Shown: one piece after another, positions 10,043-38,093 of the stretch | Layout of the letters: each line of letters begins with the position of its first letter | Position numbering within the stretch: the first letter of the stretch is position 1 | Assembly (NCBI GenBank): GCA_000531095.1 | Contig: HG799462.1 | Location: 933,551 to 997,550, forward strand | DNA length: 64,000 nucleotides | Origin: Gemmata massiliana | Lineage (GTDB): Bacteria > Planctomycetota > Planctomycetia > Gemmatales > Gemmataceae | Direction of reading: 5' to 3' | Translations under genes and position numbers: made by a program | The notes under the pieces: generated by a model | Database searches by the model: none | Told to the model about the DNA's origin: nothing | Seen by the model: only the letters and a program-made list of their open reading frames with translations

Positions 10043-10505
10043 AACGGGTGGGCTGGAGAGCTTTCTGTCACGGGTTTCTGTGAGGCCGGGCTTGGATGCT
10101 GCGGCCTCGCAGAGCTTAACTGCTGAAAGGTAAACCTTTCGCACGATTCGAGTTCGAGCAGCCAAGTCGGTTACTGCACCTTCTGCGATCCTCTCTTCCG
10201 CGCCTTCATTGGGTGCTGCTTCGCCAAGAGCTAATGGCGTGAACAGCGCGCCCGAGGTCGGTGGAACGTCGTGATCTGATTCTAGTTAGCACCGATCATC
10301 CATTGTTTCAGTTCTGGGCTTGAACGCGCTCCCGGGTGGCAGAACGGCACGTGCCAGGGAACTGCTGCCCAGGTCGCGCTTGCGGCTATTGGAAAAATCG
10401 CACCGAATGAGATTGACCCGCCACGCCCAGCCCGTTACCCTACCCCTGGCTCATCGCCGTCTGGCACACAATCGCCAGACTCACAACTCCGGAAAACGCC
10501 AGAAT
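10043..10505. other. Intergenic region before the surface protein
   Basis: No gene seen. A GAGGCCG...CGGCCTC stem around 10080-10112 may end the msrB-AKR transcript. The remainder should carry the promoter of the next gene. Confidence 0.45.
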
Positions 10506-12072
10506 ATGTCGCTCACGATCCGCTCGCTCGCATCCCGTCTGCGCCAACGCCTCACCCAGATCACCCAGAAGAGCCCGGCCTCCCGAACCGCCCCGCGCCA
10601 CCGGGCGCGGCTCGGCCTCGATCAGTTCGAGGCCCGCGAGGTGCCCGCCGCGTTCACCTGGATGGGGTGGAACCAGGCGACCAACACGTTCAGCACCGAC
10701 GCACAGGTGGCGAACAACGGTGGCGGAGGCGCCGGACCCGGACCTGCCGGGGCCGGTCGTGACCGGCCCGGCGAACCGCCTGCCGGGTAACGGCGACGAC
10801 GTGACGATTCCGGGGGTCGGGGTCGTGGGACCGGGCGGGTCCGCGTACTACCCGGACTGCAACGGGCTGATCGTGGCCGGGGGCGGGGCGTTCCAGTCGC
10901 TCACGATCCTCAGCAACTACACGGGCACAGTCACCTTCGGCGGGGCGATCACGACGGGCGCGTACTCGCAGGGCGGCGGGGCCATTTCGCAGCCCTCCTC
11001 GGGCACCGACCTCACCGTCACCAGCACTTTCAACTGGTCCGGCGGGACGCTCAACAGTTCGACGAACCAAGCAATCGTCCACCTTCGTGGCGCAACCGGT
11101 ACAATTTCCCCGGGCGCGGGTAACGTAATCACAACCGGTAGCACATTGAGTTTTGAAAATAACGGAACAGTAGGAAGCACTGTGACTTTCAACCCCGGCG
11201 AAGTCGACTTCGCTGGGGGTACCGGTATTGACGTAAATGACCTATGTTCGGTAAACATGGCACCAAAGAAAACGGCTGAGATTCGATTTAAAACTACCGA
11301 CGGGAGGAACCCTAGCGACGGGAAGAATATAGTTTTGAAGAATGGCAGTACCTATCGGATTTTTGGCGAAAACGATTTCCCTGCCACTGGCGAACCGACG
11401 CTTGCGGAGGCGATTAGCGATATTCCGATGGTTATGAATACGGGTTCCAAATTCACTATTGAAGCTGCTGCTTCCGCACGCTTTGAGAAAAAATCGGCTG
11501 GCTACCAGCTAGACGCTACTAAATTTGGTTCAATCCTTCAATTCGGCGGATTGCTGTCTATTGAGAGCGGTTCAGAGTTGTCTGTAGAAAAGGGCGTGCA
11601 GATGCTCGGCGGAACACTTCAGACAACGGCCCACGCAACGCTCGCTGCGGCAAAGCAGGTCGGGGCAATTTGGGGCAGTCTACGTATTGACTCGATCACT
11701 AATGGCCCAGCAATCCAGATTCTAATCAATGCAGGAAGTACACCGCACAAGCGTGGATATCTTTCTGTTTCTGGTGATGTCAAATTGAATGCGGGTACAT
11801 ACAAGCCAAATGTCGATGCGTCCGATAGTTCAAATGTTGACGCATGGATTGTGTTGGGAAGTGTTACGATCGGGAGTGCCGCAAAAATTGCTCCCGTAAC
11901 TCAAAATTTCAATAGTGCAGCAGGTCTTCCCGCTAACTACCGGGCCAAGGTTTTTGTTGCTAACGGTGGTATTACTGGAATCCCCGCAGTCGAAAGCACT
12001 CAGCCGAGTTATCAGTTGTTCGTTCTTCAACCTGGCGGGAACGAACGAGATCTGGCACTCGGGCCGAATTAG
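10506..12072 (+). CDS. Large secreted/surface protein, one frameshift at about 10719
   Basis: The N-terminus carries the planctomycete surface-protein leader: a basic stretch, RLGLDQFEAREVPAAFTW, then a repeat-rich body. The frame is broken near 10719: 10506-10790 reads ...QVANNGGGG, while 10720-12072 reads VAEAPDPDLPGPVVTG then LPGNGDDVTIPG. Removing one G of the GG at 10719-10720 joins them into QVANNVAEAPDPD. The rest (about 425 residues) is rich in T, G, S and N with beta-solenoid character (SLTILSNYTGTVTFGGAITT). From about 11100 onward base composition becomes markedly AT-richer. Function unknown; likely a cell-surface beta-helix protein. The frameshift may be a sequencing error. Confidence 0.72.
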
Positions 12073-12090
12073 TAGTTGAGATGTTCTTTC

Positions 12091-12136
12091 AATTCCAGCG
12101 ACGAACTAGCATTCTCACTAGTTCGTCGCTGGAATT
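12091..12136 (+). terminator. Long hairpin terminator after the surface protein
   Basis: Perfect 19-bp arms (12091-12109, 12118-12136; AATTCCAGCGACGAACTAG) around an 8-nt loop, 18 nt past the stop. The 3' side is AT-rich without a long T run. Confidence 0.8.
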
Positions 12137-12215
12137 ATATAGGTATACACAGGTGCTGTGAGTTAACGTATTCGTTAGGTAATGACTATTTAAGTTGCTA
12201 ACACCAGAGGGATCT

Positions 12216-12821
12216 ATGACCTTACAAATAGCGGTAATGATCGCAATGGCCCTATCCCACGATGGTGTCGTAGCACACGCTGCCGGTCAAAGCTTTGCTC
12301 CAAAAGGAAAAGACGACCAAAAACCTCGCGTCGGTAGCGCTGAGGTGGTTTTGGGAGGAATCGTAACTTCCGTGCGTCAAGACGCTATCACAGTCTCACC
12401 GGGCAATAGCGCAGAGACTAAAATCAAATTCAATGATCGTGGCCAGGTTATTGCGCAGGCAGTGAATCTCTCGCCACCGCGTCCCCCCATAACCTTAAAA
12501 TTGAGTAAGACGCTCTCCTCAGGCGAATACTCAATGCAAGCTGGAATAGCTGGCTCTTACCGCATCAAAGATGTTAAGGTTGGAGATCAGGTGGTCTTAA
12601 GTATTTCCCACGTAAATAAGGAGGTCACTTGCACTACAATTTGCATTCAACGACGCCCCGGGGGGAAGGTTCCACCGGCTCCTGGAGACTCTTCTCGTAA
12701 CCCCCACCCTTGGCATGAACGGTGCAATGCCTTACAGGATCTTGAGCTAAAGGGATCGCCTTTCCCTGAGAAGAAACACGCAAAAACAGATCCCGACATC
12801 CTCGTCTTGCCGTGCCAATAA
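12216..12821 (+). CDS. Small secreted RRPGG-motif protein, paralogue 1
   Basis: A 201-residue protein with a short hydrophobic N-terminus (LQIAVMIAMALSHDGVVAHA), likely a signal peptide. The body has a small beta-domain (LGGIVTSVRQDAITVSP, YRIKDVKVGDQVVLSIS) ending in a conserved CTTICIQRRPGGKVPPAPGD. The same last motif occurs in the next three genes, so they form a tandem family. ATG 12216 follows AGAGG. Codon use is AT-richer than the neighbours. I do not recognise a known domain. Confidence 0.78.
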   Translation: MTLQIAVMIAMALSHDGVVAHAAGQSFAPKGKDDQKPRVGSAEVVLGGIVTSVRQDAITVSPGNSAETKIKFNDRGQVIAQAVNLSPPRPPITLKLSKTLSSGEYSMQAGIAGSYRIKDVKVGDQVVLSISHVNKEVTCTTICIQRRPGGKVPPAPGDSSRNPHPWHERCNALQDLELKGSPFPEKKHAKTDPDILVLPCQ

Positions 12822-13038
12822 CCCTAAATCGAAACACCCCATTGGCTCTCTTGTGTCTCCGTAATTATCTCCCTTCGCTTTTTTCTACCATTTCCCCTTC
12901 GGGCACTTTTCGGTCCCGAGGGGAGCTTCGCTTCGAGCAGACACCCGCATACCTCCGGCATCCTTTTCGGCGCCTTGCACTTGCAGTGTTGCCCGTTACG
13001 TTTGCCCCGCGTCGGCAGTCTATAGTCACGGAGTTGCT
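12822..13038. other. Spacer with a repeated leader segment
   Basis: It holds GAGGGGAGCTTCGCTTCGAG followed by CAGACACCCGCAT at 12918-12950. A similar segment (GAGGGGGAACTTCGCTTC, then CCGCAGACACTCGCAC) lies at 13626-13659, after the next gene. The spacers were thus duplicated together with the genes. Confidence 0.55.
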
Positions 13039-13593
13039 ATGCTTCTGGTGCTTCTGGCGTGCTGCTGCCAACTGACGACGTGTGCCGCGGAGCCGGAGCC
13101 GCGGTCCGGGCGCTCGCTGAGCGACGAGCGGTTCGGGCCGCTCGACAGCATCACCCTCCTCCACGAGGAATACTACCTCAGCGTGGGCGAGGTCTTTAAC
13201 GGGAAAGTCATAGCCAAGACCGAGGACACGATCACGATCCAGAAGTGGCGTTCCGTGGCGCGCGTGTTCCGGGTCTCCCCGACTCTCACGTCCGACCGCA
13301 TCCCGTTGGAGTCCCGTCGTCTGGGGACTGGCCACCGTTTGAGCCACATCCGCATCGGGGATATGGTTGGATTCGACGTAGCCCGCGCGAGGGACGGGTA
13401 CGTGATCGTGAGTTTTGGGATCTACAGGCGTCCCGGGGGTAAAATCCCCGAAGCCGAGGACGATCATCTCCCAGCTAAGTCCCGGCTCCACAATCGCTGT
13501 ATGTCAGAACAGATCGTTGAAGAAGTGCTCGTGCCGAAACTGTTGCCCTTCATGGTCACCCGGTTCCTCCATTACGGCGCGCCTCGTCCGTGA
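13039..13593 (+). CDS. Small secreted RRPGG-motif protein, paralogue 2
   Basis: A 184-residue protein. The N-terminus MLLVLLACCCQLTTCAAEPE is a signal peptide with a possible lipobox Cys. The body repeats the family pattern: VGEVFNGKVIAKTEDTITIQ, then HIRIGDMVGFDV, then IYRRPGGKIPEAEDD. GC content is much higher than in paralogue 1, although the layout is the same. No enzyme motif seen. Confidence 0.78.
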   Translation: MLLVLLACCCQLTTCAAEPEPRSGRSLSDERFGPLDSITLLHEEYYLSVGEVFNGKVIAKTEDTITIQKWRSVARVFRVSPTLTSDRIPLESRRLGTGHRLSHIRIGDMVGFDVARARDGYVIVSFGIYRRPGGKIPEAEDDHLPAKSRLHNRCMSEQIVEEVLVPKLLPFMVTRFLHYGAPRP

Positions 13594-13732
13594 TCCCCTT
13601 CTCCCCTCGGAACGGAATCGTGTCTGAGGGGGAACTTCGCTTCCCGCAGACACTCGCACGCTGAGCGCACCTCACGCAAACTGAAGCGCCTGGCGGGGTC
13701 ACCGTTGATAAAATTGGTGACACGGGGTAATA

Positions 13733-13756
13733 ATATTAAATTTATCAATTTAATAT
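13733..13756 (+). promoter_or_regulatory. AT-rich palindrome just upstream of paralogue 3
   Basis: Arms ATATTAAAT (13733-13741) and ATTTAATAT (13748-13756) surround TTATCA, ending 9 nt before the start codon. In this GC-rich genome such a site is a good candidate for a promoter or operator; no purine-rich ribosome site is seen there. Confidence 0.45.
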
Positions 13757-13765
13757 AGAAATATC

Positions 13766-14509
13766 ATGGCAATCACCACATACGCGCCAGTGATCTTGGC
13801 AATAGGCTTACTGACAACTGACAGCCACATTGCTCAACAGCGACGAGAAGCGCCAACAAAACAAGAAGATCCGTGGGACTCGGGACCGCCACCAAATCCA
13901 AAAGAGCCGGCCTCTTGGACTTTTACAGATCGACAGACCTCGGGATTCGTGGAAGCCGTCAATGCCCAAAGTATTACGCTCCACTGGCCGGAACGTCGCG
14001 TGCTCAAGCTCCGATACGATCCAAAAACCGGACAGCAACTCTCTTGCACGGAGGAGCGGTTTGCAGCAGTGCCTGGAAAACAATTCGCTCTTGACGCAAC
14101 TTTAGCAAAGGGCGAGTACCTGAACACCGGCTCGCCAGATGACACTTATCGCATTAGAGATGTGAAACTCGGCGATCGAGTCCTCATCACTTTCGATCGT
14201 CGAAATGGAATTAACACCTGCAAAACCATTCGCATTACGAGACGGCCGGGTGGTGATGTGCCGCCGGCCCCGGGTGAAAAGCCGACCGCATTTCACAAGC
14301 ATCATGAACAAGCGAATGCCGACCAACAGTGGGAAGAGAATCGGCTCCCGTACCCGCGTAAATACTGGCCGAGCTATCTCGGGCAAGACGGCAACTTCTA
14401 CGCAACCCCCTACCCGAGCGACTCGAAAGTGATTGTCGCCGTTCCTCCGATCGCGCCGCCCCCAAGAGAGATCAAACCCGCTGTTGTGCCAGACGTGCGG
14501 CAGCGATAA
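13766..14509 (+). CDS. Small secreted RRPGG-motif protein, paralogue 3
   Basis: A 247-residue protein, the longest of the four. The N-terminal hydrophobic stretch (TTYAPVILAIGLLTTDSHIA) is a probable signal peptide. Core: TSGFVEAVNAQSITLHW, YRIRDVKLGDRVLITFD, CKTIRITRRPGGDVPPAPGE. It has an extra Pro/Tyr-rich C-terminal tail (LPYPRKYWPSYLGQDGNFYA and AVPPIAPPPRE) absent from the others. No known domain. Confidence 0.78.
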   Translation: MAITTYAPVILAIGLLTTDSHIAQQRREAPTKQEDPWDSGPPPNPKEPASWTFTDRQTSGFVEAVNAQSITLHWPERRVLKLRYDPKTGQQLSCTEERFAAVPGKQFALDATLAKGEYLNTGSPDDTYRIRDVKLGDRVLITFDRRNGINTCKTIRITRRPGGDVPPAPGEKPTAFHKHHEQANADQQWEENRLPYPRKYWPSYLGQDGNFYATPYPSDSKVIVAVPPIAPPPREIKPAVVPDVRQR

Positions 14510-14592
14510 AGGCGATCATAGACGTTAGTGCCTCAGTTTGCCGTCGCGTGATCTCGCCTTAACCGTTACCACCTCCCTCGGGAGATGATTGA

Positions 14593-15210
14593 ATGTCACG
14601 TACTAGACTTGTCAGCGTATTGTTCTGGTCTCTCGCTGCCCTGGCAGGGGCAACCGCTAACGCGCCGCCCCCTGAGATGGCTCCGGTTAAGGCCAAGCCT
14701 GAGGAAGTGCCTTCTACCTACAAAGGCATCGTGGTCGCCGTGACGGATAAAACGGTCACAATCAAACCATCGGGAGATGTCACGATCACCAAAAGTCGTA
14801 TCGGCGAAGGTGGCAAAAAAGAGGTTGTCTGGGTGTACACTCAGGACAATACAAAGCCGCCGCAAGCGTTCGTTTTCAGCGACGCGGCACTCTGGGCCAA
14901 CGGGACGCTCCCCTTCGCCAACCGAGCCGGGAAACCCGCCCTGGCGGTTAACTCGAACAGTCGCCTTCACAAGATCTCCGACCTCTGCCTTGGCGACCTT
15001 GTTGAGATCACCTGCGGCGATGTCGGGGGAACGGTCTACTGCAACGAGATTGCGATCATCCGCCGCCCGGGTGGACAGGTGCCCCCAACCATTGGCGACG
15101 ACACGTTGCCGGTGGCGGACCGCGTGTGCACCCAGCGCAACGCCGCACAAGCGAGAGAGGAACAGATCGTGCGGCACCTGTCGCGTCTGATGTCCCCGTT
15201 CTTCCCGTAA
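14593..15210 (+). CDS. Small secreted RRPGG-motif protein, paralogue 4
   Basis: A 205-residue protein with a good signal peptide (RLVSVLFWSLAALAGATANA). Core: YKGIVVAVTDKTVTIKPSG, HKISDLCLGDLVEITCGD, CNEIAIIRRPGGQVPPTIGD. The conserved Cys before the RRPGG motif is shared with paralogues 1 and 3. The GGGAG at 14579-14583 precedes the ATG by 9 nt. Function unknown. Confidence 0.8.
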   Translation: MSRTRLVSVLFWSLAALAGATANAPPPEMAPVKAKPEEVPSTYKGIVVAVTDKTVTIKPSGDVTITKSRIGEGGKKEVVWVYTQDNTKPPQAFVFSDAALWANGTLPFANRAGKPALAVNSNSRLHKISDLCLGDLVEITCGDVGGTVYCNEIAIIRRPGGQVPPTIGDDTLPVADRVCTQRNAAQAREEQIVRHLSRLMSPFFP

Positions 15211-15295
15211 CAGTCACACGGCTCCGGTGCTAATTTGAGCGCCGGGGCCGCGTAACTGTCTTCCTTTCGCCACTTCACTCGCGGGCCGATTCGCC

Positions 15296-15780
15296 TCACA
15301 ACGTCGGGCCGGTGTCGTCGGGGAGCATGATCTTGCGGATCAGCTTGATCGGCAGCCCGCCCTGGCGCACGAACTCGTCGTGGAACGTTTGTAAGCGGAA
15401 GTCCGCGCCCTTCGCCTTCTTGTAGTCGTCGCGCAACTTGTAGATCTGGAGCTTGCCCAGCGTGTAGTAGAGGTACGTCGGGTTGTACGACCCGCGGCGC
15501 GCCTCCTGGAACGCGGTTTCCGGCTCGATGTACCCCTGCTCCACGAAGAACTTCTTCCCCTGCTCTACGGTCCAGCCCTCCGTGTGCAGCTTGATCCCGA
15601 CGATGTACCGGCAGTCGCGCAGTAGCGCCTCGTTCAGTTGGGCGAGCCGCACTTTCGGGTCGCCGTCGCCGTACCCCTCCTCCACGATCATCTGCTCCGC
15701 GTAGTGCGCCCACCCCTCGACGTTCGTGCCGCACGTGTACAGCTTCCGCACCTTCGTCGGGTACTGCTTCGCGTAGAGCT
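15296..15780 (-). pseudogene. DUF885 protein, 3' fragment (left of prophage)
   Basis: This is the C-terminal 160 residues of a DUF885-family protein: LYAKQYPTKVRKLYTCGTN, EGWAHYAEQMIVEEGYGD, then EARRGSYNPTYLYYTLGKLQ. It starts abruptly at 15780, preceded on the minus strand by an in-frame TAG from phage DNA. The other 427 codons are at 36522-37802. Joining 36524 to the core GCT (15778-15780) gives an unbroken frame ...LQFLYWMELYAKQYP. The fragment has no start of its own and lacks the HEAFPGH motif, so it is presumably inactive while the prophage is in place. Confidence 0.93.
15778..15780. other. attL core (GCT)
   Basis: GCT is the only sequence shared at both host-prophage junctions (with 36521-36523). 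A 3-bp overlap is what a serine integrase with its short crossover leaves. Confidence 0.75.
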
Positions 15781-15830
15781 ACTAGTGGGAGCAGGGTGCC
15801 CGACATCCGACGGACCGTCGTGATCCGGTA

Positions 15831-16220
15831 CTAGAGTTCAAAGTGGTCCAGCCCCGGCACGTCCTCCTTGAACTCGCCCAAGAACCCGAATTGGTCTTTG
15901 ATGTAGTTTGCCACGTCCTCGGGGGTTTCGCCGTCGCCGATCATGAACGTGCGGGTGAGTGGCTGCTCGGCCCCGCTTCCATACGCCCGGGTGGTCGTGA
16001 CGCTGATGGAGACGGCCCCGGTAGTGACCACCATCACGTGAGGCTGGCGAGGCTGCGCCACAGGCATGCGATCGTCGAAGAAAATTTCGATGCCCGGATC
16101 ACCGTCGCCGATGTGGAAGGGATCTAAGAAGAGCTCCGAGCTCTTGATTCGGTGCGCGTTGTTCGAGAGCAGCCAGCACCACAGTTGCCAGCAGTACAGA
16201 TGCTTCAGTCCCGGTTTCAT
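15831..16220 (-). CDS. Phage hypothetical protein at the left end
   Basis: A 129-residue protein, last gene of the leftward structural block, so possibly distal tail or lysis-related. Visible features are an N-terminal Trp/Leu-rich patch (LYCWQLWCWLLSNNAH), a middle beta-rich part (VMVVTTGAVSISVTTTRAYG) and an acidic C-terminus. No family recognised. Its TAG stop overlaps, as the palindrome CTAG, with the TAG that would end the integrase in the free phage. Confidence 0.7.
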   Translation of the reverse strand: MKPGLKHLYCWQLWCWLLSNNAHRIKSSELFLDPFHIGDGDPGIEIFFDDRMPVAQPRQPHVMVVTTGAVSISVTTTRAYGSGAEQPLTRTFMIGDGETPEDVANYIKDQFGFLGEFKEDVPGLDHFEL

Positions 16221-24317: not shown

Positions 24318-25580
24318 TTACTCCTTGGTGCCGCGGTAGACGTAGCGCGGTTCCTTGGTGAACGGAACCCCGTGCTCCCGGGCCACCCAGATCCCGACGA
24401 TGTCCCGGCGGACGTCCTCGGACGACAACGGGGCCGAATTGACCTGGAAGGGGATGATCTGGCGGTACCGGAACGCACGCCTGAAGTCGCCCAGGTACCA
24501 CCGGGCCGGTGCGTTGGTAGTGGACACGGAAGCCGCAATCAGCCGGTTGTACCAGATGCGGGACGCGACGATGAGTTCCACCGGGCGCACCAAACTCTGG
24601 CCCGTCTGGGTCAGCGTGTTACCCGAGTTGCTGGACTGCCGCACCCATTCCGGGTACAGGATCGACTTGGTCTTCATCTCCCGCTGCGGCATGATGAGAA
24701 TCTGCGGCGCCGGGACCGTGATTTCCCACCCAGTCCCCGGGTCCGTGTTCCCCTCCAGGATCTGGTAGCCCGCGTCGATCGACGAGTAATCCGTAAGCTC
24801 GTTGGTGGAGCCGTTCACGTAGTCGTTGGGTTGTGCCCCCGCCGACGTTTGGTACGTGTTGGCCGTCGCCCCGTCCCGGCTGTACGTGTTGGTGATCCCC
24901 AGCACAGTATCGGCTTGCCGCAGCTCCTTCTGGCGGGCCACCGCGGTCCCGGCGTTCTTGCAGGACGATTCCAGCAAGTCGGTGCGGTCATAGATGAACG
25001 TCTTCTCGTTGATCTGGATGACGTTCCCGTAGCGCTGGTTGTCCGGCACCTCGATGTAGGTCTCTTTCAGGCCCACGGTCGGGTACGGCTCGTGGTCGAG
25101 CAGGTCGCCCGACACGCCCCCGTCGTTCATGACGCCGATCATCTTCCCGCCGTTCACCCGCTCCTGCTTCACCTCCATCAGCTTGTCGCCGATGAACTCG
25201 GGGGCGGTGTACGCCTCCATCGTGAGGGCGTCGACGAGGCCGGCGATGGTGTCGTTGAACGCGCTGATGCGACTGAAGTGGCTGGGGAGGACCGTAGCCC
25301 CCTCAGCCTCGTCCAGCCGGCCGAACTGCTCCCGCAGGGCGAGCGCCGCGCGCACGTCGGACCCGCCGAAGCCCCGGCCCAGGAACGCCATCGCGACCTC
25401 GCGGACGTCCAGGTTCTGGGGGTTGACCATCCGGTCGGACCGGTTCAGGGTGGGGCAACCGTTGTCGTCCTCCCCGATCCCGAACATCTCCCGGAGTTGG
25501 GCGCGGTACCCGACGGCACCCCGCCCCTCGTTCACGTTCTGCTCCCACAGCTTGCGGAGCTTGTCGCCCAGGTATGCCAT
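24318..25580 (-). CDS. Major capsid protein
   Basis: A 420-residue protein, the largest virion subunit, in the capsid position after the protease/scaffold and decoration genes. It has a helical N-terminal arm (MAYLGDKLRKLWEQNVNEG, AALALREQFGRLDEAEGATV) and beta-rich P- and E-loop-like segments (GNVIQINEKTFIYDRTDLLE, RKELR-type helix). The C-terminal RAFRYRQIIPFQVNSAPLSS and EPRYVYRGTKE segments fit the HK97 A-domain. Assigned by position, size and style. Confidence 0.78.
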   Translation of the reverse strand: MAYLGDKLRKLWEQNVNEGRGAVGYRAQLREMFGIGEDDNGCPTLNRSDRMVNPQNLDVREVAMAFLGRGFGGSDVRAALALREQFGRLDEAEGATVLPSHFSRISAFNDTIAGLVDALTMEAYTAPEFIGDKLMEVKQERVNGGKMIGVMNDGGVSGDLLDHEPYPTVGLKETYIEVPDNQRYGNVIQINEKTFIYDRTDLLESSCKNAGTAVARQKELRQADTVLGITNTYSRDGATANTYQTSAGAQPNDYVNGSTNELTDYSSIDAGYQILEGNTDPGTGWEITVPAPQILIMPQREMKTKSILYPEWVRQSSNSGNTLTQTGQSLVRPVELIVASRIWYNRLIAASVSTTNAPARWYLGDFRRAFRYRQIIPFQVNSAPLSSEDVRRDIVGIWVAREHGVPFTKEPRYVYRGTKE

Positions 25581-26154: not shown

Positions 26155-27027
26155 TTACTTGGCCAGGAGCCACTTCTTCAGGGCTGCCTTGTCCTTCGGC
26201 GGGGCATCCACCGGGGCGGCCTGGGCCTGCTCGGTGAGCGGCATGGAAGCGCCCGCCTGGGCCGTGACGTACTTCCGGGGCTTGGCCATAGCCGCCACGG
26301 TCTTGGTCAGGTTGGCGATCTGCTCCTGGAGCGCCGCCACCGTGGGGTCGGTCTGCTCCTTGGCGGGCTCGTCCTTCTTCTCCCCATCCTGGGGAGGGGT
26401 GTTGATTTCTTCCTGCTTCTCAAGGATGAGCTTGATCTTGGCCGCCTTGCCCGCGGTATCCAGGGCGGTATCCTGCAGGACGGCGAGGACCGCCTGGCTG
26501 AACGCATCGGACATCGCCTGGTCGCTGACGGAGGGTTCCGCGGCGGGGGCGGCGTCCTCCTGCTCCTTCAGGGACGTGGCCGTGGCCGGGTCGGACACGA
26601 GGTCCACGGACTGGACGCGATCGATCTTGGTAACCACGAGGATGTCCTCTTTCATGTGCGACTGGCCGTGGGCCGAGTGGGACAGACCGAAGAAATTGAG
26701 ACCGCGGGCCAGGTCCTCCTTAATCATCGCCGTGACCTGGGCCTGGGACTCCAGGTACACCAGGTCGCCCCGCAGTTCCTTCCGCTGGGCGTCGAACCGG
26801 ACGTTCTTGAGACGGCCGAAGCGCTCCTGGGCCGAACGGTGCTTGTCGGCGCTGTGGTTGACGTAGACCGCCTTGCCCTCGTACAGGCTCACCGCACCCT
26901 GCATGGCCTGCTCGGTGTAGAGCCGCTTGTTCTTGGACCGCTGGCCCAGGATCTTCACGTCGGCGATCACCCCAGCGGCCGGCGCCTGGGCGGACTCCCA
27001 GAGGGTGGTTTCGATGAGCTGCGGCAT
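26155..27027 (-). CDS. Prohead protease fused to scaffold
   Basis: A 290-residue two-domain protein. The N-terminal domain (residues 1-150) holds AVYVNHSADKHRS and GLNFFGLSHSAHGQ, consistent with a His/Ser prohead protease, then DRVQSVDLVSDPATA. The C-terminal half is charged, helical and coiled (ALDTAGKAAKIKLILEKQEE, VAALQEQIANLTKTVAAMAK), as expected of a scaffold that is later digested. It overlaps the portal stop by 1 nt. Confidence 0.75.
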   Translation of the reverse strand: MPQLIETTLWESAQAPAAGVIADVKILGQRSKNKRLYTEQAMQGAVSLYEGKAVYVNHSADKHRSAQERFGRLKNVRFDAQRKELRGDLVYLESQAQVTAMIKEDLARGLNFFGLSHSAHGQSHMKEDILVVTKIDRVQSVDLVSDPATATSLKEQEDAAPAAEPSVSDQAMSDAFSQAVLAVLQDTALDTAGKAAKIKLILEKQEEINTPPQDGEKKDEPAKEQTDPTVAALQEQIANLTKTVAAMAKPRKYVTAQAGASMPLTEQAQAAPVDAPPKDKAALKKWLLAK

Positions 27028-28511
27028 CAGGCTCTCCCGGCGTCACGCTGCATCAGTCCGGCAGCGGTCTGTGGTTGCTTGGCGGCGGCAGGCGAGGAGG
27101 GGACGACCGGTTCCGGCGGCAGCTCCGCAAAGTTCGCCTGCTCCTTGTCCCAGTCCAGGCCCTCCTCGGCCGCGATCGTCTGGGGACTCTTAATCTTTGC
27201 CAGACGGAGCACTTCGTTACGCTGGGTCTCGTCCAGCATGTTGCGGACTACCGGCGAGGTGTAGTTCACGTGCAGGTCGACCCGCTCCAGCACGTCGTCC
27301 GGGACGTCGTCCCGGCCCTGCTCGGCGGCGATCTCGATGACGGCAGTGAGCACGTCATCGACGTACTCCGCCACCACTCCCTGCTCGCCCTCAACGAGCT
27401 TGATGAACGGGCTCTCGGCCGTGAGGGAGGAAGCGTAGCTGGACGCGGTGGAGTCGCCCGAGATGAGCCAGTACGGGCACTCCAGTGCGGCCGACGTGGC
27501 CTCCAGTGAGAGCTTGACGGAGACCGCTGCCGCGTCCGCGTTCGGCGACGGGGGCGGCGGTTGGTATTCCAGGCCCTCCGGGATGTCCTGGACCGTGCCC
27601 GGCTCAATCTGCTGGTACGTGACTTCACGGGAGCCGTTCGGCGTGGTCACCGTGTAAGAGCCGGAAGCGTTCGCCGACTGCAACGATTGAATGGCGCCGA
27701 CGGGGGCCTGGGCGTGCTGGCGGACGTAGGCGATGCTCGCCCGGACCTTCTCGCCCTCACGGCTGGCGTGGCGCAGCTTCTGCCCGCCCTGCAGCTCGTC
27801 GATGCACGCGGTCAGCGCGGGAAGGCCCCGCTTCTGATTCAGGTTGGAGCCGCGCTTGAGGTGGAAAATGAACTGCGCCGGAACCTGCCGCTCGCTGTTG
27901 GTGCCGTAGTCCCGGACGTTGTACCGCACCGGCTTGCCCGGCCGGTCGGGGTCGGTCAGGATGCCCCAGGACCACGGCCCCTCGTAGGACTGCCCCTCCG
28001 GGGGGACCACCTGGTCCGGCTCGATGAACTTGAGGGCCGTGACCCCGTCGTCCATCGGCGTGAGCTGGATGAAGCACTCGCCATCCGTGAGGTACCGGCG
28101 GTAGATCTCGCGTTCGACAATCTTCCAGTGGCAGGCCCGTTTGAATTCCTCGAGTAGCGCCGTGATGACCTTGGCCAGGCGCTTCGGGGCTTCCTTGTCC
28201 GGGTCCGCGGACTGGACCTCCTGGCAGGAGCCCGCCCCAACGACGTAGCGGCCCATCCCGTTGATGCCGCCCGAAGCGTTCGGGTTCCGCTCGTACAGGT
28301 AGCGGGAGACGTGGCGGACGCGGTTGAGCTCCTGCAGCGTCCGGACCGTCTGCAGCTTGTCCCGGTACAGCTCCGGACCCCAGACCGGGGTGAGGGGCCT
28401 GCCGTTCCAGGTGTTCAGCTCGTAGTCGGAGACGGGGGTGCCATAGATGTCCTGGGTGGACGCCTCTTGTAGGCCGCCGAACCAGCTCCGTAGCTTGCCC
28501 CAGATCGACAT
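27027..28511 (-). CDS. Portal protein (lambda-type)
   Basis: A 494-residue portal, which forms the DNA entry ring. Typical stretches are ARYLYERN-like VSRYLYERNPNASGGINGMG, FKRACHWKIVEREIYRRYLT, DGECFIQL, FIEPDQV, QFIFHLKRGSNLNQKRGLPA and the helical LSLEATSAALECPYWLISGD. The C-terminal tail is Pro/Ala-rich. I prefer ATG 28511 (MSIWGKLRSWFGG), which has GGGAG about 9 nt before and lies after the TerL stop. ATG 28538 (MHLNREPEYMSIW) is possible, but its DNA duplicates an internal TerL stretch. Confidence 0.88.
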   Translation of the reverse strand: MSIWGKLRSWFGGLQEASTQDIYGTPVSDYELNTWNGRPLTPVWGPELYRDKLQTVRTLQELNRVRHVSRYLYERNPNASGGINGMGRYVVGAGSCQEVQSADPDKEAPKRLAKVITALLEEFKRACHWKIVEREIYRRYLTDGECFIQLTPMDDGVTALKFIEPDQVVPPEGQSYEGPWSWGILTDPDRPGKPVRYNVRDYGTNSERQVPAQFIFHLKRGSNLNQKRGLPALTACIDELQGGQKLRHASREGEKVRASIAYVRQHAQAPVGAIQSLQSANASGSYTVTTPNGSREVTYQQIEPGTVQDIPEGLEYQPPPPSPNADAAAVSVKLSLEATSAALECPYWLISGDSTASSYASSLTAESPFIKLVEGEQGVVAEYVDDVLTAVIEIAAEQGRDDVPDDVLERVDLHVNYTSPVVRNMLDETQRNEVLRLAKIKSPQTIAAEEGLDWDKEQANFAELPPEPVVPSSPAAAKQPQTAAGLMQRDAGRA

Positions 28512-28528
28512 GTACTCCGGCTCCCGGT

Positions 28529-29998
28529 TCAGGTGCATAGTATCTTTGCCTCTGGTGGGCGCTTCTGGCCGGTGAGGAGTAAATTCAGGGCCTGGGTCGC
28601 CATCTCCACGGCATCCGGGCCGTCGTCGTGGGCACCGTTCGGCAGTTCCTTCATCTGCTGCAGCGTGAGCTTGTTGCCCACCGTCTGCCCGAGGAAGTGC
28701 AACCGCTTCTGCGCCAACAGCGGCCCCAGGGAGACCTGGATGCGAGCGTGCTTGGACTGGTCGGAGGGGGTGGTGTGCAGGTCGATGGGCACGTCCAGGC
28801 CCTCGGCACGCAGCCGCTCCTGGATGGCAAGCCCGACGGCCTCCTGGAACTGGTTCGACTCCACGATGAGGCGGGCGTAGGGCCGGCCCTCCCGCTTGGC
28901 CTGCCCGACGATCGCCACCGCCCGAGCGTACAGCGACGGGAGCGGCTCCCGGTTCAGGTGCATGGTCCCATAGAGGTGGCGATCGGCGAGCAGCGTGAGG
29001 TCGCAGAACGCCCCGTAGTCGCCGGCCTTGCCCGACTTGGACTTGCTGGGGTCGAGCGACAGGACGCGGAACTGCTGCGGGTTCCGCTCGTGAATGGGCA
29101 GCTCGTCGCACCACACCCAGGGGCCGAAATACTCGTCGGGGAACGCACGGAGCGTGGAATCGCCCGTCGGCTGGCACTGGTACAGCGCGTCCCAGATGTG
29201 GGACTGGCCCCGTAGCTCGTAGGCCCGCCGCTTGTCCTCGTACCACTCCTGGCTGTACTTGGACGTGAACAGGCCCTCCCCGGGAGAACGACCCACGAGG
29301 TCGTTCTCCTCGGCGAGCGCCGGGAACCGCACCACGAGCCACTCCTCGGGCTCCGTCGCCAGGAGCCGGCCGCACAGGTCGTCCGGGTGCCAGGGGGTGT
29401 TGATGATGGCCGTGAAACCGTCCGGCGTGAGCCGGGTCTCAACAGCAGCGTTGTACGTCGCCCACACCTTGTCACGGATGACGATCGATCCAGAATCCTC
29501 CGAGCCCTTGAACGGGTCGTCGATGATGATCCCGGTGGCGTCCCGGCCGGTCACGCTGCCCTGGATGCTGGCGCTGATGACGTGGCCGCCTGCGGTGGTC
29601 TTCCAGTAGTGCTTGGCCTGCGAGTCGCTGCGGATCTGCAACCGCCCGGTCGGGTCCAGCGAGCCGCCGAACTCCTTGATGTAGTCCCGGGCGATGCTCC
29701 CGTGGCCCGACGCCAGCTCCGCCGAGTAGGACAGCAGGATCAGCTTATTGGCCGGGTTCTGGTTGAGCACCACGCACGGGAACAGGCGGCTGGTGATGAG
29801 GCTCTTGGCGTGCTGGGGCGGCGTGAGCGCCATCATCTTGCGGCACCGCTCACCCGCCCTGGGGTGGCCCGGGGGGAACCGGAGCTGCTTCGCCGCCAGC
29901 AGGACCAGTTGGCGCTGCAGGTAGTGGTGGAACGGCGCCCAGCGGTACGTGGGGTGGGTCAACCTGGCCAGCGCGAGGGGCGTGAGAATGGGTTGCAC
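28529..29998 (-). CDS. Terminase large subunit
   Basis: The packaging motor: an N-terminal ATPase (Walker A TPPQHAKS at residues 59-66; Walker B GIIIDD near 156-161) and a C-terminal RNase H-like nuclease (RVLSLDPSKSKSGKAGD, RLIVESNQ, HDDGPDAVEMA). The length of 489 residues is normal. The start at 29998 overlaps the upstream gene by 149 nt; a later start is unlikely because LTHPTYRWAPFHHYLQRQLV fits the family's N-terminus. Confidence 0.93.
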   Translation of the reverse strand: MQPILTPLALARLTHPTYRWAPFHHYLQRQLVLLAAKQLRFPPGHPRAGERCRKMMALTPPQHAKSLITSRLFPCVVLNQNPANKLILLSYSAELASGHGSIARDYIKEFGGSLDPTGRLQIRSDSQAKHYWKTTAGGHVISASIQGSVTGRDATGIIIDDPFKGSEDSGSIVIRDKVWATYNAAVETRLTPDGFTAIINTPWHPDDLCGRLLATEPEEWLVVRFPALAEENDLVGRSPGEGLFTSKYSQEWYEDKRRAYELRGQSHIWDALYQCQPTGDSTLRAFPDEYFGPWVWCDELPIHERNPQQFRVLSLDPSKSKSGKAGDYGAFCDLTLLADRHLYGTMHLNREPLPSLYARAVAIVGQAKREGRPYARLIVESNQFQEAVGLAIQERLRAEGLDVPIDLHTTPSDQSKHARIQVSLGPLLAQKRLHFLGQTVGNKLTLQQMKELPNGAHDDGPDAVEMATQALNLLLTGQKRPPEAKILCT

Positions 29999-31006: not shown

Positions 31007-32197
31007 CTACAGGGGTTGGCCAGCGGCTTGCCGGGCAGCGATCAGGCTGGTGCGGTACTCTGCGACGCTGTACTCGATGTCCTCCGGGGACATCCAGGGT
31101 GACTGGCGTTTGACCCACTCCCGTTGCTGCGCACACAGGTTGTCGACGCTGCGGTACGTCGGGTCGGCAGGCGGGACTTCCAGGACGGTGTCGTCCGCGT
31201 CGGGGATGGCCAGCGAGTCGCACAGTTCTTCTGCACGCTTCCTGGTTGGTGATGTGTACTGGCTTGCTTCGCCGCCACAGGCGGCGAGCGGCAGGCGGTG
31301 GATGATCTCTCTCTTCAGGCGGTCACGGCCGGCGGTTGCCAGCCAACCCCAGGAGAGGGCCTTGATGCCGAGGAACTCACGTGAGTTGATGGCAGCGGCC
31401 ACCAGGGGAGGTGTGGGTTTGACCTGTTTCTCCTTCTGGATCTCAGTGAATAGGCCGGCGAGCCGGCACGCTGCCAGTTCAGGGGAGATCTTCAGTCCCC
31501 AGGTGAAGGGGTTGTGGTTTTGGACTGGGTTGTTGAGGTGGAGTTCGACCTCCCCAAGTAGTTGGCTTATCCACTCTATCTTTATGAGTCCTGGGACGAT
31601 TCCTATTCTTACTGAGATCTCAGGTGAACGGGTGTTGTTTATGACGCCCCCCCTCTCCCTGTCGTTAGACAGTCCCGACCCCAACCCCGCTTCGGGGTTG
31701 GGTGGGACGTTCTTTGAACGGTTAAGGGGGGTTCTGTGTGTCTTCGGAGACACTCGGAGCGGGGTGTCTTCTGTGACACCAACGGGTGTCTTCTGTGACA
31801 CCGGGTTCGTGTCTTCCGAGACACGCGGAGTCGCCTCGCCTTGGTGTCTTCGGAGACACTCGGAGTGCGGGTTCGTGTCTTCGGAGACACTCGGAGTGGC
31901 GTGTTGCAGTGCTTCGAGGCCCTGCAGGTTGATCGAGTAGCGGGTCGAGTGGTTGTGGCGGTACTCGGTGCGAAGCACACCGAGCTGCCGGAGTTGTTCC
32001 ACCAGCCGCTTCACCTGGCGATTTTGTGGGTCGGCAAAACCGCAGTCGCGGGCCAGTGTGGACTGCAGTGGCCAAGCCCACTCGTTTCGCCCCTGGTAGT
32101 CGTTCAGGAGCCAGAGCAGGCCCTTCTGTTGCAGTGTGAGACCGGACGCGGTGCGGATGAGGTTGAAGCGCTGGATTTGGATCGGGAGGTCTGTCAT
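31007..32197 (-). CDS. Phage replication initiator-like protein with in-gene origin
   Basis: A 396-residue protein. Residues about 15-90 form a winged helix (LTLQQKGLLWLLNDYQGRNE, STLARDCGFADPQNRQVKRL, VEQLRQLGVLRTEYR), as in phage replisome organisers. Residues about 102-155 are low-complexity, with repeats such as VSEDTNP, VSQKTPV and VTEDTPL encoded by six palindromic 16-bp iterons. The C-terminal part (ITPEEV-like WMSPEDIEYSVAEYRTSLIA) is helical. Layout resembles lambda O, where the origin lies inside the initiator gene. ATG 32197 is the first start inside the domain. Confidence 0.75.
   Translation of the reverse strand: MTDLPIQIQRFNLIRTASGLTLQQKGLLWLLNDYQGRNEWAWPLQSTLARDCGFADPQNRQVKRLVEQLRQLGVLRTEYRHNHSTRYSINLQGLEALQHATPSVSEDTNPHSECLRRHQGEATPRVSEDTNPVSQKTPVGVTEDTPLRVSPKTHRTPLNRSKNVPPNPEAGLGSGLSNDRERGGVINNTRSPEISVRIGIVPGLIKIEWISQLLGEVELHLNNPVQNHNPFTWGLKISPELAACRLAGLFTEIQKEKQVKPTPPLVAAAINSREFLGIKALSWGWLATAGRDRLKREIIHRLPLAACGGEASQYTSPTRKRAEELCDSLAIPDADDTVLEVPPADPTYRSVDNLCAQQREWVKRQSPWMSPEDIEYSVAEYRTSLIAARQAAGQPL
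31738..31890. repeat. Six palindromic iterons (candidate replication origin)
   Basis: Six copies of GTGTCTTCGGAGACAC or close variants start at 31738, 31764, 31786, 31809, 31844 and 31875; units 2 and 3 read GTGTCTTCTGTGACAC and unit 4 GTGTCTTCCGAGACAC. Each can form a 6-bp hairpin with a 4-nt loop. Starts are 22-35 nt apart. All lie inside the replication initiator gene. Confidence 0.8.
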
Positions 32198-32201
32198 TGG
32201 T

Positions 32202-32280
32202 GCTCTCGGTTGAACACCGGAACCCCGACGCGGGTCAAAGGCCACCACAGCCTACCGTGTCGGGGTTCCGGATCGAGAGC
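32202..32280. repeat. Two-part hairpin upstream of the replication gene
   Basis: Arms GCTCTCG (32202-32208) with CGAGAGC (32274-32280), and CCGGAACCCCGAC (32217-32229) with its complement at 32259-32271. In the 5' leader of the replication gene, so it could be a terminator or attenuator for early transcription. Confidence 0.6.
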
Positions 32281-34111: not shown

Positions 34112-34378
34112 ATGTGGACCGCGACGATCGACGATCCCGACACTGGACTGGCCGAAGTGCTCGCCACGGGCAGCACGCCCGAGGAGGCGGTGGCCCGCCT
34201 CGACGCCGCGACAATCGACGGCGAGTCGAACGACGAGGGCCTGACAATATGGACCGACGGTAGAAGCGGAAAGCGGTACGTGGTCCCAGCAGACCTTGAA
34301 TACCCGATAATCGGCAGAGTGTACAACATCAACGAAGAATTCGCGATGTTCACCACGGACGAAGAGGAGGCCGAGTAA
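34112..34378 (+). CDS. Small rightward phage protein
   Basis: An 88-residue acidic protein (MWTATIDDPDTGLAEVLATG, LEYPIIGRVYNINEEFAMFT). ATG 34112 has GGAG 8 nt before; a GTG at 34103 would overlap that site. Stop overlaps the next start (TAATGG). Acidic small proteins here may mimic DNA; that is speculation. Confidence 0.6.
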   Translation: MWTATIDDPDTGLAEVLATGSTPEEAVARLDAATIDGESNDEGLTIWTDGRSGKRYVVPADLEYPIIGRVYNINEEFAMFTTDEEEAE

Positions 34379-34683
34379 TGGCCCGCCCACGCAAGAAGAA
34401 GGCCACGGAAGCCGCCCCCGAACGCTCCCCGCAGGAAGCGGCACTGTGCGAGAAATACCCACTCGTGAACATCGTCCCGGGTTCGTGGCGAGCACCGGGC
34501 GGCAGGGACGGGTGGGGCACGAAGGCGACGGTGGTCACGCTCTGCCCCTGTTCCGAAGCGGAGGGCAAGGACGTAACGACGGTGCGGGCCACGAGCGACC
34601 TGTTCCAGGTCGGCTCCCTCTGCCAGGTGTGCAGCAAGGCCCGGAGCAAGAACAAGGCGGCGAAGCGGAAAGAAGCCAAGTAA
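34378..34683 (+). CDS. Small basic Cys-containing phage protein
   Basis: A 101-residue protein with basic ends (MARPRKKKATEAAPERSP; KARSKNKAAKRKEAK) and Cys pairs (TLCPCSEAEG, SLCQVCSKARS) that look like a small zinc ribbon. Likely nucleic-acid binding. It precedes the integrase by 55 nt. Confidence 0.62.
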   Translation: MARPRKKKATEAAPERSPQEAALCEKYPLVNIVPGSWRAPGGRDGWGTKATVVTLCPCSEAEGKDVTTVRATSDLFQVGSLCQVCSKARSKNKAAKRKEAK

Positions 34684-34738: not shown

Positions 34739-36577
34739 GTGCACACCGTCGTGATCTACTGCCGGGCCTCGTCGAGCGAGCAGACCGTCAGCTGCGGGGA
34801 CCAGCTCAAAGCACTCAAGGCCGAAGCCAAGAAGAAGGGCTACAAGGTACTGCGGGACTACATCGACGACGGCCTCTCCGGGTCCAAGCAGATCGAGAAG
34901 CGGGTAGCTTTCCACCAGATGATAGAGGACTCCTCGGCGAGAGAGTTCACGCACATCCTGGTGTACGACTCGAGCCGCTTCGGTCGGCTCGACGCCCTCG
35001 CCGCCGCCCAGCACAAGCTGACACTGCGGAAGAACGGGGTGCAGGGCCTCATCTCTCTGGGGGAGGGGGAGCTGCTGTGGACCAGCTCGATGGGGCGGAT
35101 GATGGACGCCCTCACCTCAGAAGCCAACCACGAGACCGCACTCAAGATCAGCCGGGCATCCATCCGGGGGAGGGTCGAACAGCTCCTCGAACGCAAGGTC
35201 TACCCGCACGGCCAGATACCCTACGGCTATGCCAAGGTCTACCGCGGCGACGGCCAGGAGATAAGATTGGGGCGGGACGCCCGGTTCCACAAGCCCCGCC
35301 ACTGGACCCGCGAGTTGGTGGTTGATGAGGCCGAGGTCGCGGTGGTGAAGAGGATATTCGCCCTCTACACGGGTAAGGCCCAATCTATCCGCCAGATCAC
35401 CGCCACACTCAACGCGGAGCAGGCCCCCTCCTGGGACAAGAACGGGTGGTCCTGGAACTCCGTAAGCAAGGTCCTCACGTCGAAAGCCTATCTCGGCTAC
35501 GGGATGATCCACGGCAGCAAGAAGGTGTGCAAGGAGGCCCACAACCGGTGCGAGACAATCGAGGTTCCCGGCGTCCTCCCGGCCGTCGTCGACCAGGATA
35601 CCTTCGAGCTGGCCCAGCGGCTGCATTCCAGGTCCACCATCTCCCGGTTCCGCTCGGACAAGGATAACCGGACCCTATCCGGGATAGTCCGCTGCGGCCA
35701 CTGTGGATACGCCCTCGTGAGCAAGCAACGCAAGAGGGAGGGACGGGCCGGCGGCGTGTTCTACTCGTGCGTGGGTGGGCTCAAATATTCGACCGGCTGC
35801 CCGCAGTACCAAGCCTACGAATCCGACCTGCTGCCGAGCATCATCAAGGAATTAGTGAAGGCAGTCGACGCGGAGGTGCTGGCCCAACTCGCACCCAGGG
35901 AAGAGGCACCCGCCGCGGACGACCCGAGTGCGGGACTGGCCAAGCAAGTCGAGAAGCTCCGGGAGCAGGTCCGGCGGGCCACGCTGAGGGCTGCCGCGGC
36001 GGACGACGACATGCTGGCCGAGTATGACGAAGCGGCCCGTGAGCTGAAGGGGCAGTTGAGGGCCGCGGAGGAGCGGCTCCGCGTGACCAAGCACGTGCAG
36101 CAGGAGGGTGGCCCCGCGCTGTGGACGGAGTGGTGGCGGGAGGTCCGCCCAGACGTGATCGGTGCGGCGAACGATCCCGCACTGGCCACCGAACTAACGG
36201 AGGCCATCTTCCGTGAGTACCCGGCCCTGCGGAGCGTCCCGACCGGTGGGACCGTCACGGAGTACCTCGCGCGAGCCCGGGAGACGCTGTCCCGGCTCGC
36301 CAAGGACGGCAACACGGACCCGCTGGCCACGCTCCTCCCGGACCTGCTCGGGGAGCGGACGACGGGCACGGTGGTGGACAGCAACACGCTGAAAGCGACG
36401 CTGCGGCGGATGGGGTGCGAGGTGAGTGTGTGGTGGCGGACCGCAGAGCGGAAACGGAGAAATGAGCCGTTACACGTGCTGGACAAGGCGAAGCTGGTGA
36501 TTAGCTGGTCTGGGCACTCTGCTCCATCCAGTAGAGGAACTGGAGATAGTGCCCGGGGAACGCTTCGTGGATCGTGA
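34739..36577 (+). CDS. Large serine recombinase (phage integrase)
   Basis: A 612-residue integrase. Resolvase domain (1-150) with Y7-x-R9-x-S11 (IYCRASSSEQ), DDGLSGSKQIEKR and YDSSRFGRLD. Recombinase domain (about 165-290; GQIPYGYAKVYR, ILYTGKAQSIRQI-like IFALYTGKAQSIRQITATLN). Zinc ribbon CGHCG near 319 with later Cys (YSCVGG, TGCPQ). Coiled coil about 390-450 (LAKQVEKLREQVRRATLRAA). GTG 34739 is the start. The core GCT (36521-36523) is codon 595, so the last 17 residues are encoded by host DNA; in the excised circle the tail would be TSGSRVPDIRRTVVIRY. Confidence 0.95.
   Translation: MHTVVIYCRASSSEQTVSCGDQLKALKAEAKKKGYKVLRDYIDDGLSGSKQIEKRVAFHQMIEDSSAREFTHILVYDSSRFGRLDALAAAQHKLTLRKNGVQGLISLGEGELLWTSSMGRMMDALTSEANHETALKISRASIRGRVEQLLERKVYPHGQIPYGYAKVYRGDGQEIRLGRDARFHKPRHWTRELVVDEAEVAVVKRIFALYTGKAQSIRQITATLNAEQAPSWDKNGWSWNSVSKVLTSKAYLGYGMIHGSKKVCKEAHNRCETIEVPGVLPAVVDQDTFELAQRLHSRSTISRFRSDKDNRTLSGIVRCGHCGYALVSKQRKREGRAGGVFYSCVGGLKYSTGCPQYQAYESDLLPSIIKELVKAVDAEVLAQLAPREEAPAADDPSAGLAKQVEKLREQVRRATLRAAAADDDMLAEYDEAARELKGQLRAAEERLRVTKHVQQEGGPALWTEWWREVRPDVIGAANDPALATELTEAIFREYPALRSVPTGGTVTEYLARARETLSRLAKDGNTDPLATLLPDLLGERTTGTVVDSNTLKATLRRMGCEVSVWWRTAERKRRNEPLHVLDKAKLVISWSGHSAPSSRGTGDSARGTLRGS
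36521..36523. other. attR core (GCT)
   Basis: It is shared with 15778-15780. In the circular form, GGGCACTCTGCT (36512-36523) and AGCAGGGTGCCC (15790-15801) would be 9 nt apart and match as inverted repeats at 11 of 12 positions, as arms of an attP. Confidence 0.75.
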
Positions 36578-37802
36578 TGATGTCCATCCCCGTTTTGTTG
36601 AACTGCCGCATGTGCTCGACCTTCCGGCGCGCCTCCCATTCCGTTTCCGGCGGGGTCACGTAGTAGAACGCCTCGGTCGCCTTCGTCTCATACGCGCCCG
36701 GCGTGTCCATCGACGCGAACCCGCCGGTGCGCATGAACGCGGGCGTTTCCGCGATCGTCGGCCGCACTTCCGACGGTACGGTCACGATCTTCTTGTCGAC
36801 AAGGAACTTCCGGGTGCGCTCGATGGTCCCGCGCGTCGCGCCCACGAGGTCTTCCGGCTTCGGGTGGCCCTCGTTCAGCGTCGCGAGCACTTCGGCGGGC
36901 GTCCGCTTCGGGTCGATCTTCTTCGCGGTGGCAACGAACGCTTCCTGATCGCGCTTGAGGTTGGCTTCGCCGATGGCGAGCAGCTTGTCGAGCGGAGCGT
37001 CGAGCATCTCCTCGGTTTCGAGTTTCTTCACGAACGCATCGGCCCCGATCGCGTACTTCCCCTTCGATTTCGGCAGCAGTTCCGTTTCGATCCACTTTGC
37101 CGCGCCCTCGAACGCTTCGATTACAGGCTTGTTGGCGGCCTCGAACTCGGCGAACAGTTTCTTGTCTTTGCCCGCGGCATCTTTGGCCCACGCGGGCAGA
37201 TCATTGCGGAAGAAACTCACCGAACCCTTCGCCACGATGAGACCCAGGTCGGTGAACTCCTTCGGCGGGTTCTCCACGTTCGTTTTCATCGCACCGAGCA
37301 GTTGCGGAGCGGCTTTCAGGCGCCCGATCACTGCTTTGAGCCGGTCCGCGGGCGGGGCGAACGACCGCTTCATCAGCATGTCGATCCCCTCGGCCGGTTT
37401 GCCCAGGTACACAACCGGGTTCCGCTTCCAGTCGCGCACGGTTTCGAGTTCCAGCAACTCGGCGCGAATCGCGTGGTCGAGCGTTTCCGCGTCGATCGCT
37501 TCGTCGTCGGCCAGTTTCCCGGCGCGAAGAGTTTTCAGGCGCTCGTGGAGCTTCTTGAGCACATCAGCGCGGTGGGTAATGTTCGGGGCGCTCAGGTCGG
37601 CCAGTTTCTCATCGAAGTCGTGGATGCCCGCGTAGGTCGCTTGGTTCGGCTCCCACGCGAAGAGCGCGGCATAGTAGTCGTCCACGAACGCTGCGAACCC
37701 GGCCGGCGCGGGCGTATCGGCGGCGACGGGTTGCGGGCGCGAAATCCCGATAAGCGCGACGAGAAGTAAACCGGCTAGAGCCGGGAAGCGGAGTGCAGTC
37801 AC
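36521..37802 (-). pseudogene. DUF885 protein, 5' fragment (right of prophage)
   Basis: It codes for the first 427 residues: a signal peptide from GTG 37802 (VTALRFPALAGLLLVALIGI; GGAG 6 nt upstream), then DUF885 (DDYYAALFAWEPNQATYAGI, ALTHPKPEDL-type GHPKPEDLVGATRGTIER) up to the conserved TIHEAFPGHYLQFLYWM. The frame then runs nine codons into phage DNA and stops at 36501. The HEAFPGH motif resembles a metallopeptidase site. The missing 160 residues are at 15299-15780. Confidence 0.93.
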
Positions 37803-37985
37803 GAGTTGCTCCGGGCTGGGAACGTCTGCGGAGAGGCTGAAGTGAGAATACGCCCGGTGGGAGTGGCGCCGCAACTGATATTCGCGCCGACTTTGTTTCG
37901 CGTGAAATCGAGCGAACTGGGGATCAGTGATTTCTGTAGCCGGGCTCCGTGAAGTGGAGGTATTCGCTGCGTGGTTTGTGTGCTT

Positions 37986-38051
37986 GTTTGGTGGCACAGG
38001 CCTCTGGCCTGTGTGAGCGCCTCCACAGGCCAGAGGCCTGTGCCACCAAAC
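37986..38051. repeat. Perfect 28-bp-arm palindrome (GGCACAGGCCTCTGGCC)
   Basis: Arms 37986-38013 and 38024-38051 are perfect complements around a 10-nt loop. It lies 42 nt past the stop of the last ABC permease gene, so it can end that transcript; the sequence looks like a dispersed repeat unit. Confidence 0.75.
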
Positions 38052-38093
38052 CAAAGACCAAGCACATCAATTCAACGCTCTCATTCGGCTGGT

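Follow-up and report, generated by a model that had tools for sequence, protein, structure and literature searches.

The locus described here raises the question of what becomes of a large serine integrase when integration of its own phage exchanges the end of its gene. Serine integrases are standard genome-engineering tools, and the choice of direction is a central question about them, to which the usual answer is a separate directionality factor (RDF). In the window, by which we mean the whole stretch of 64,000 nucleotides that was analysed, a prophage of 20,758 bp interrupts a DUF885 gene in a planctomycete that is, by its gene content, of Gemmata type. Based on the comparisons below, it is very probable that in this prophage the 3' end of the integrase gene, int, contains the whole attP in frame, and that a conserved native tail is swapped for a host-encoded one upon integration. 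The main features are as follows.

15779 to 36536, no strand: prophage, with portal (27027-29375), capsid (24318-25580) and replication initiator (31007-32248)
36531 to 38054, minus strand: DUF885, N-terminal part, ending in PGHYLQFLY at the junction (Pfam PF05960, 1.8e-50)
15296 to 15778, minus strand: DUF885, C-terminal part, beginning at the junction with AKQYPTKVRKLY (Pfam PF05960, 2e-43)
34739 to 36577, plus strand: prophage form of int, a large serine recombinase of 612 aa with a GTG start, ending in PSSR followed by GTGDSARGTLRGS
15831 to 16220, minus strand: last ORF of the phage, which in the circle converges on int and has a stop codon that overlaps the one of free-form int (CTAG)

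The int product has the Pfam domains Resolvase (1.5e-17), Recombinase (3.6e-16) and Zn_ribbon_recom (9.9e-9), all above the curated cut-offs, and the occurrence of the Resolvase catalytic domain, the Recombinase domain and the zinc ribbon in one long protein is characteristic of a large serine recombinase. An ORF of 101 aa (34378-34683) immediately precedes int. A single-sequence structure model had a mean pLDDT of 39.7 and is unusable as a whole; enzymes of this class have a coiled-coil after the zinc ribbon, and in this otherwise poor model helices at 396-456 have a pLDDT of about 73-90.

To read the two ends of int, the position of the crossover has to be known. In the preliminary description the crossover was placed at a common GCT core (15778-15780 and 36521-36523), with 36523 joined to 15781. 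This join lies 15 bp off, since it leaves 15 extra bases (TGGATGGAGCTCTAC) in the host gene that are found in no relative; the host gene joined at GCT would read QFLYWMELYAKQYP, with five residues present in no relative, and it was rejected. An alternative AGCT core (15777-15780 and 36502-36505) leaves extra codons in DUF885 and was likewise rejected against the empty sites. These are provided by the genomes of two close relatives, G008 and G012, where DUF885 is uninterrupted and reads PGHYLQFLYAKQYP or PGHYLQFLYAKLYP. From the BLAST overlap of both window halves on the relatives' DUF885 the common core is GTAGAG, at 15773-15778 and 36531-36536; in G008, the DUF885 of which is about 95% identical in DNA, the same six bases (L003:1510-1515) align to both positions. 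When the two DUF885 halves are rejoined at GTAGAG, one uninterrupted in-frame gene results. The GCT core had in its favour three bases in common and an open frame, but it gives no symmetric attP and the empty sites of both relatives refute it, so that we consider it practically impossible as the true crossover.

With the ends rejoined at GTAGAG, attP is a 48 bp imperfect palindrome, GGGCACTCTGCTCCATCCAGTAGA/GCTACTAGTGGGAGCAGGGTGCCC, centred on the dinucleotide AG (15777-15778, equivalent to 36535-36536) and symmetric at 19 of 25 positions, a score reached at only 3 of 63,950 window positions. About the same AG dinucleotide attB is symmetric at 14 of 25 positions, a score reached at 202 of the 63,950. 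Both sites are thus short imperfect palindromes with a common central dinucleotide, as is characteristic of large serine recombinases, with cleavage predicted at AG. The excised circle would carry the junction CCATCCAGTAGAG^CTACTAGTGGG. The attP join was not found in the own assembly or in viral contigs, an exact search of the viral contigs for attP or the attL arm gave no match, and no excised-circle sequence was present in the data searched. The parts of the sites and the two int ends are listed below.

36512 to 36536, plus strand: P half of attP, now in attR and inside int, with arm GGGCACTCTGCTCC (36512-36525), core GTAGAG (36531-36536) and centre between 36535 and 36536
15773 to 15801, plus strand: attL core and P' half of attP, with core GTAGAG (15773-15778) and arm GGAGCAGGGTGCCC (15788-15801)
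15779 to 15834, plus strand: displaced 3' end of int, encoding the free-form tail ATSGSRVPDIRRTVVIRY and TAG, with the first codon, GCT, taking its G from the core
36537 to 36577, plus strand: host DNA, antisense to DUF885, supplying the prophage-form tail GTGDSARGTLRGS and a stop

That the int frame of 612 aa crosses the right junction into host DNA, and that the joined phage ends keep it open as far as the TAG at 15832-15834, had both been noted earlier, and translation confirmed them. The circular gene has 617 codons and ends in HSAPSSR followed by ATSGSRVPDIRRTVVIRY, while the prophage gene has 612 and ends in HSAPSSR followed by GTGDSARGTLRGS. Integration therefore exchanges 18 phage-encoded residues for 13 host-encoded ones, codon 599 being the last phage-only codon in the prophage gene, and 599 of the 617 codons together with every recognised domain stay together. 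The earlier figure of 17 host codons after codon 595 has to be replaced by these 13 host-dependent residues. The 17-residue free-form tail proposed with it is a correct suffix, preceded by PSSRA in a free protein of 617 rather than 612 aa; the error was 15 bases, a multiple of three, and thus the frame survived and the earlier tail was kept as a suffix. The core, the dyads and the open frame support the earlier proposal that attP lies inside int, and the two alternative frames that can be read support the expectation that the C-terminus of the integrase should differ between the free and the integrated phage.

As regards the host, a search of this genome for a second close copy of the disrupted DUF885 gene found none, and the prophage thus seems to leave the host without DUF885. 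It is also noted that four neighbouring ORFs (12195-12821, 13039-13593, 13766-14509 and 14593-15210, within 12195-15210) have a common motif, RRPGG.[IV]P, and are possibly a lineage-specific duplicated family.

Next we consider which of the two forms of int is the native one. The nearest homologue of int, with 39% identity, comes from a Gemmata genome, G013. There, on contig C4, a 16.5-kb element interrupts a radical-SAM gene at CFFCWYVL/TRGL, with the core TGGTACGTC and no dyad at the centre of its attB. Its int ends in QARNGTS in the prophage and, when rebuilt, in QARN followed by GTSLQKVFSIRREVTLRIA. Aligned on the att centre, the free tail of G013, NGTSLQKVFSIRREVTLRIA, is identical to that of the window at 8 of 18 residues without gaps (fixed-register shuffle, p 3e-5 to 5e-5), and the IRR motif begins 27 nt from the att centre in both. 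The codons of the tails differ (CGA CGG against AGA CGC), with 24 of 54 nucleotides identical. A relic attL of 140 bp in G012, another Gemmata, encodes ATSVNRVAEIRRTVAVRF, which is identical to the window tail at 11 of 18 residues. The preliminary description had suggested searching relatives for the free-form tail, and related tails were indeed found in G013, in the G012 relic and in a further genome, G304; their conservation supports its claim that the circular form is the native gene. That the free form is native is concluded because the tail is conserved in G013 and the G012 relic and because, in all six elements described below, the att centre lies on a codon boundary with the frame open. 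The CTAG at 15831-15834, formed with the stop of the opposing ORF as had been described, was dropped as a proof of the native form, G013 being without it.

The G012 relic (L020:8367-8506, equivalent to C1:3018366-3018505) consists of 83 bp of DUF885 and the P' arm of a related phage, and lies about 520 bp downstream of an intact DUF885 gene, so that the scar is kept beside a whole gene. Note also that the window itself has at 10187-10285 an older, decayed attL-like scar, 76% identical to the G012 relic. It lies at the edge of about 5 kb (10052-15293) in which the window departs from G008, the same genes being only 1.4 kb apart there. The decayed scar suggests that this attB has been used more than once.

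For comparison, five homologous elements were rebuilt in the same way as that of the window; they come from other planctomycetes and occupy three genes other than DUF885. The set of six thus comprises the window, G013, G304, G546, G689 and G081, the last four of which came from a profile search for homologues. The host gene rejoins in frame in each of these four: a radical-SAM gene, which by eye from its motifs we take to be PA0069-like, in G304 (7.8 kb; int S/ITVRQNMPPVRVNVVVTGEEYRK), G546 (8.3 kb; int S/IRPIHSVIDSDCLPFK) and G689 (25.3 kb; int N/VLERQPLTVKIDRVFKG and stop), and a nucleotidyltransferase-like gene in G081 (24.9 kb; int Q/MIQPHCLTLSFKENYSIVH and stop). Each of the six has its att centre at an int codon boundary (phase 0), with the int frame remaining open across it; if the phase were random, simple arithmetic gives a probability of 0.004 for five phases matching the first by chance. 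Among the weaker homologues dyad symmetry is modest, at 11-14 of 22-25. It is also found that int ends inside a host gene fragment in G090, G093, G631 and G347, which gives, at attR, ten of ten elements examined. As attL partners only intact paralogues were found for G090 and G093, and for G347, the target of which we take, again by eye from motifs, to be ComM-like, none was found within 60 kb. The att site inside int is, as far as these genomes can be read, a property of an integrase clade.

The tails themselves are conserved in part of this clade. Free tails are 17-19 residues long in four of the six elements, and the similarity of the tails of the window, G013 and G304 was reached by 0 of 20,000 shuffles. 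The sum-of-pairs similarity over all six has a p of 0.0036, against 0.033 for a control made with the host-encoded tails, and for G546, G689 and G081 a likeness of the tails is not clear. When viral contigs, phage records and genome contigs were searched for close relatives of int, only weak matches to large serine recombinases came up, and a profile search of the viral contigs gave only such recombinases at no more than 29% identity. As a further observation, the 7.8-kb element of G304 (L078-L080, C4) carries another intact PA0069-like radical-SAM copy as apparent cargo, which perhaps replaces the gene broken by the element.

What can be read directly from the sequence is the site, the frame, the two alternative proteins, the arrangement conserved in the clade and the tail conserved in part of it. 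Based on these, the following pathway can be proposed. In the circular phage, int would encode 617 residues including the conserved C-terminal segment, in which IRRTVVIRY, probably a short beta strand, would start 27 nt beyond the crossover. Upon recombination with an attB in the host DUF885, int would be cut at codon 599/600; the conserved segment would stay behind at the other end of the prophage, int would receive the 13-residue host-encoded tail, and excision would rebuild the native int. Presumably both integrase proteins are made, and the free-phage enzyme would use the conserved tail, for example in favouring attP x attB or in stabilising the protein, so that integration would change the behaviour of the enzyme. 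The conserved tails would speak for some function, and since distant relatives of the integrase have the same arrangement, several of them with the same lost tail, the swap may matter for the entry or the exit of the virus.

What the swap does can be explained in several ways. It is quite possible, though somewhat short of an even chance, that attP simply lies in a dispensable 3' end of int, so that enzyme and site move together as a compact module and the swap has no regulatory effect. This would be in line with the finding that phiC31 integrase can do without its last 21 residues (PMC5737554), which at the same time speaks against a control of direction by the extreme C-terminus, and with the self-contained-module argument made for archaeal integrases (PMC8371274). 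Phages with a 76-78% identical capsid protein occur in two Gemmata-type genomes, one apparently the window's own (L135-L138), and no member of the window's integrase family occurs in the stretches examined, which is consistent with module exchange. Against a dispensable end stands that the free tail is kept at the amino-acid level between integrases of 39% identity, with 44% DNA identity and synonymous codon differences.

That conservation, together with the loss of the tail in every element examined, is what would be expected if the conserved tail limited the free enzyme to attP x attB while the tail-less prophage form were better at, or freed for, attL x attR. A directionality switch had been raised as a possibility in the preliminary description. 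Precedents exist in Mx8, where the changed 3' end alters the behaviour of the integrase (PMC6070905), and in a serine integrase whose direction can be switched by a polypeptide fused to its C-terminus (PMC5737554). However, serine integrases otherwise recombine attP x attB without host factors and rely on a separate RDF for the reversal, the replacement tails have nothing in common and the conservation fades in G546, G689 and G081. Such a switch is rather doubtful. A little less likely still is that the native tail is needed for activity or stability, in which case integration would disable the resident integrase and lock the prophage until another source of native enzyme arrives. This would account for the tail conservation and would resemble the archaeal suicidal integrases (PMC8371274), but the loss amounts to no more than 18 residues beyond the recognisable domains, and the catalytic and DNA-binding domains are whole. 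We give an equally low chance to the broadest form of the idea, namely that planctomycete large serine recombinases of this clade carry a self-encoded state sensor, in which a conserved C-terminal strand, encoded past the crossover, is present only in enzyme made from the circle and missing from that made by the integrated element, sets the direction and partly or wholly replaces a separate directionality factor.

Whichever of these holds, since in this natural clade a conserved part of the enzyme is swapped by integration itself, it can be tested directly whether direction may be encoded in the extreme C-terminus. A rule for annotation also follows: the apparent end of int in such a prophage is false, being encoded by the host, and the real one lies at the opposite side of the element.

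Finally, we compare the arrangement with known systems. In the integration-dependent immunity of mycobacteriophage BPs, attP lies inside the repressor gene and integration changes the C-terminus of the repressor; both cases have attP in a coding gene whose C-terminus is changed, with the difference that the gene is the repressor in BPs and the integrase here. No serine integrase with attP inside int was found in the open papers searched, and the one described here is a variant of a principle for which the tyrosine integrase of Mx8 is the precedent. In domain order, and in the size, arms and approximately 20-bp spacer of attP, it resembles phiC31, Bxb1, TP901-1 and phiJoe, the attP of serine integrases being about 45-50 bp with inverted repeats flanking such a spacer (PMC5311408); by contrast, in these canonical systems attP normally adjoins int (18 bp upstream in phiJoe) whereas here it lies inside. 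The archaeal suicidal integrases (SSV1, pTN3 and pT26-2) likewise have the recombination site inside the integrase gene, but there integration breaks the gene of a tyrosine recombinase into two fragments without activity (PMC8371274), whereas here every recognisable domain is kept intact and the change is confined to the tail. There is also a likeness to Mx8, in which attP lies inside int and an altered integrase, with changed behaviour, is reported for the lysogen, and to Mx9, which follows a similar principle (PMC6070905). As in these, attP lies within the int reading frame and int obtains a new 3' end upon integration. The present system is nevertheless Mx8-like in its working and not a member of that type, because the enzyme has serine recombinase domains. 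It differs from Mx8 further in that the exchange involves no more than 18 residues and that elements inserted at different targets retain the arrangement.
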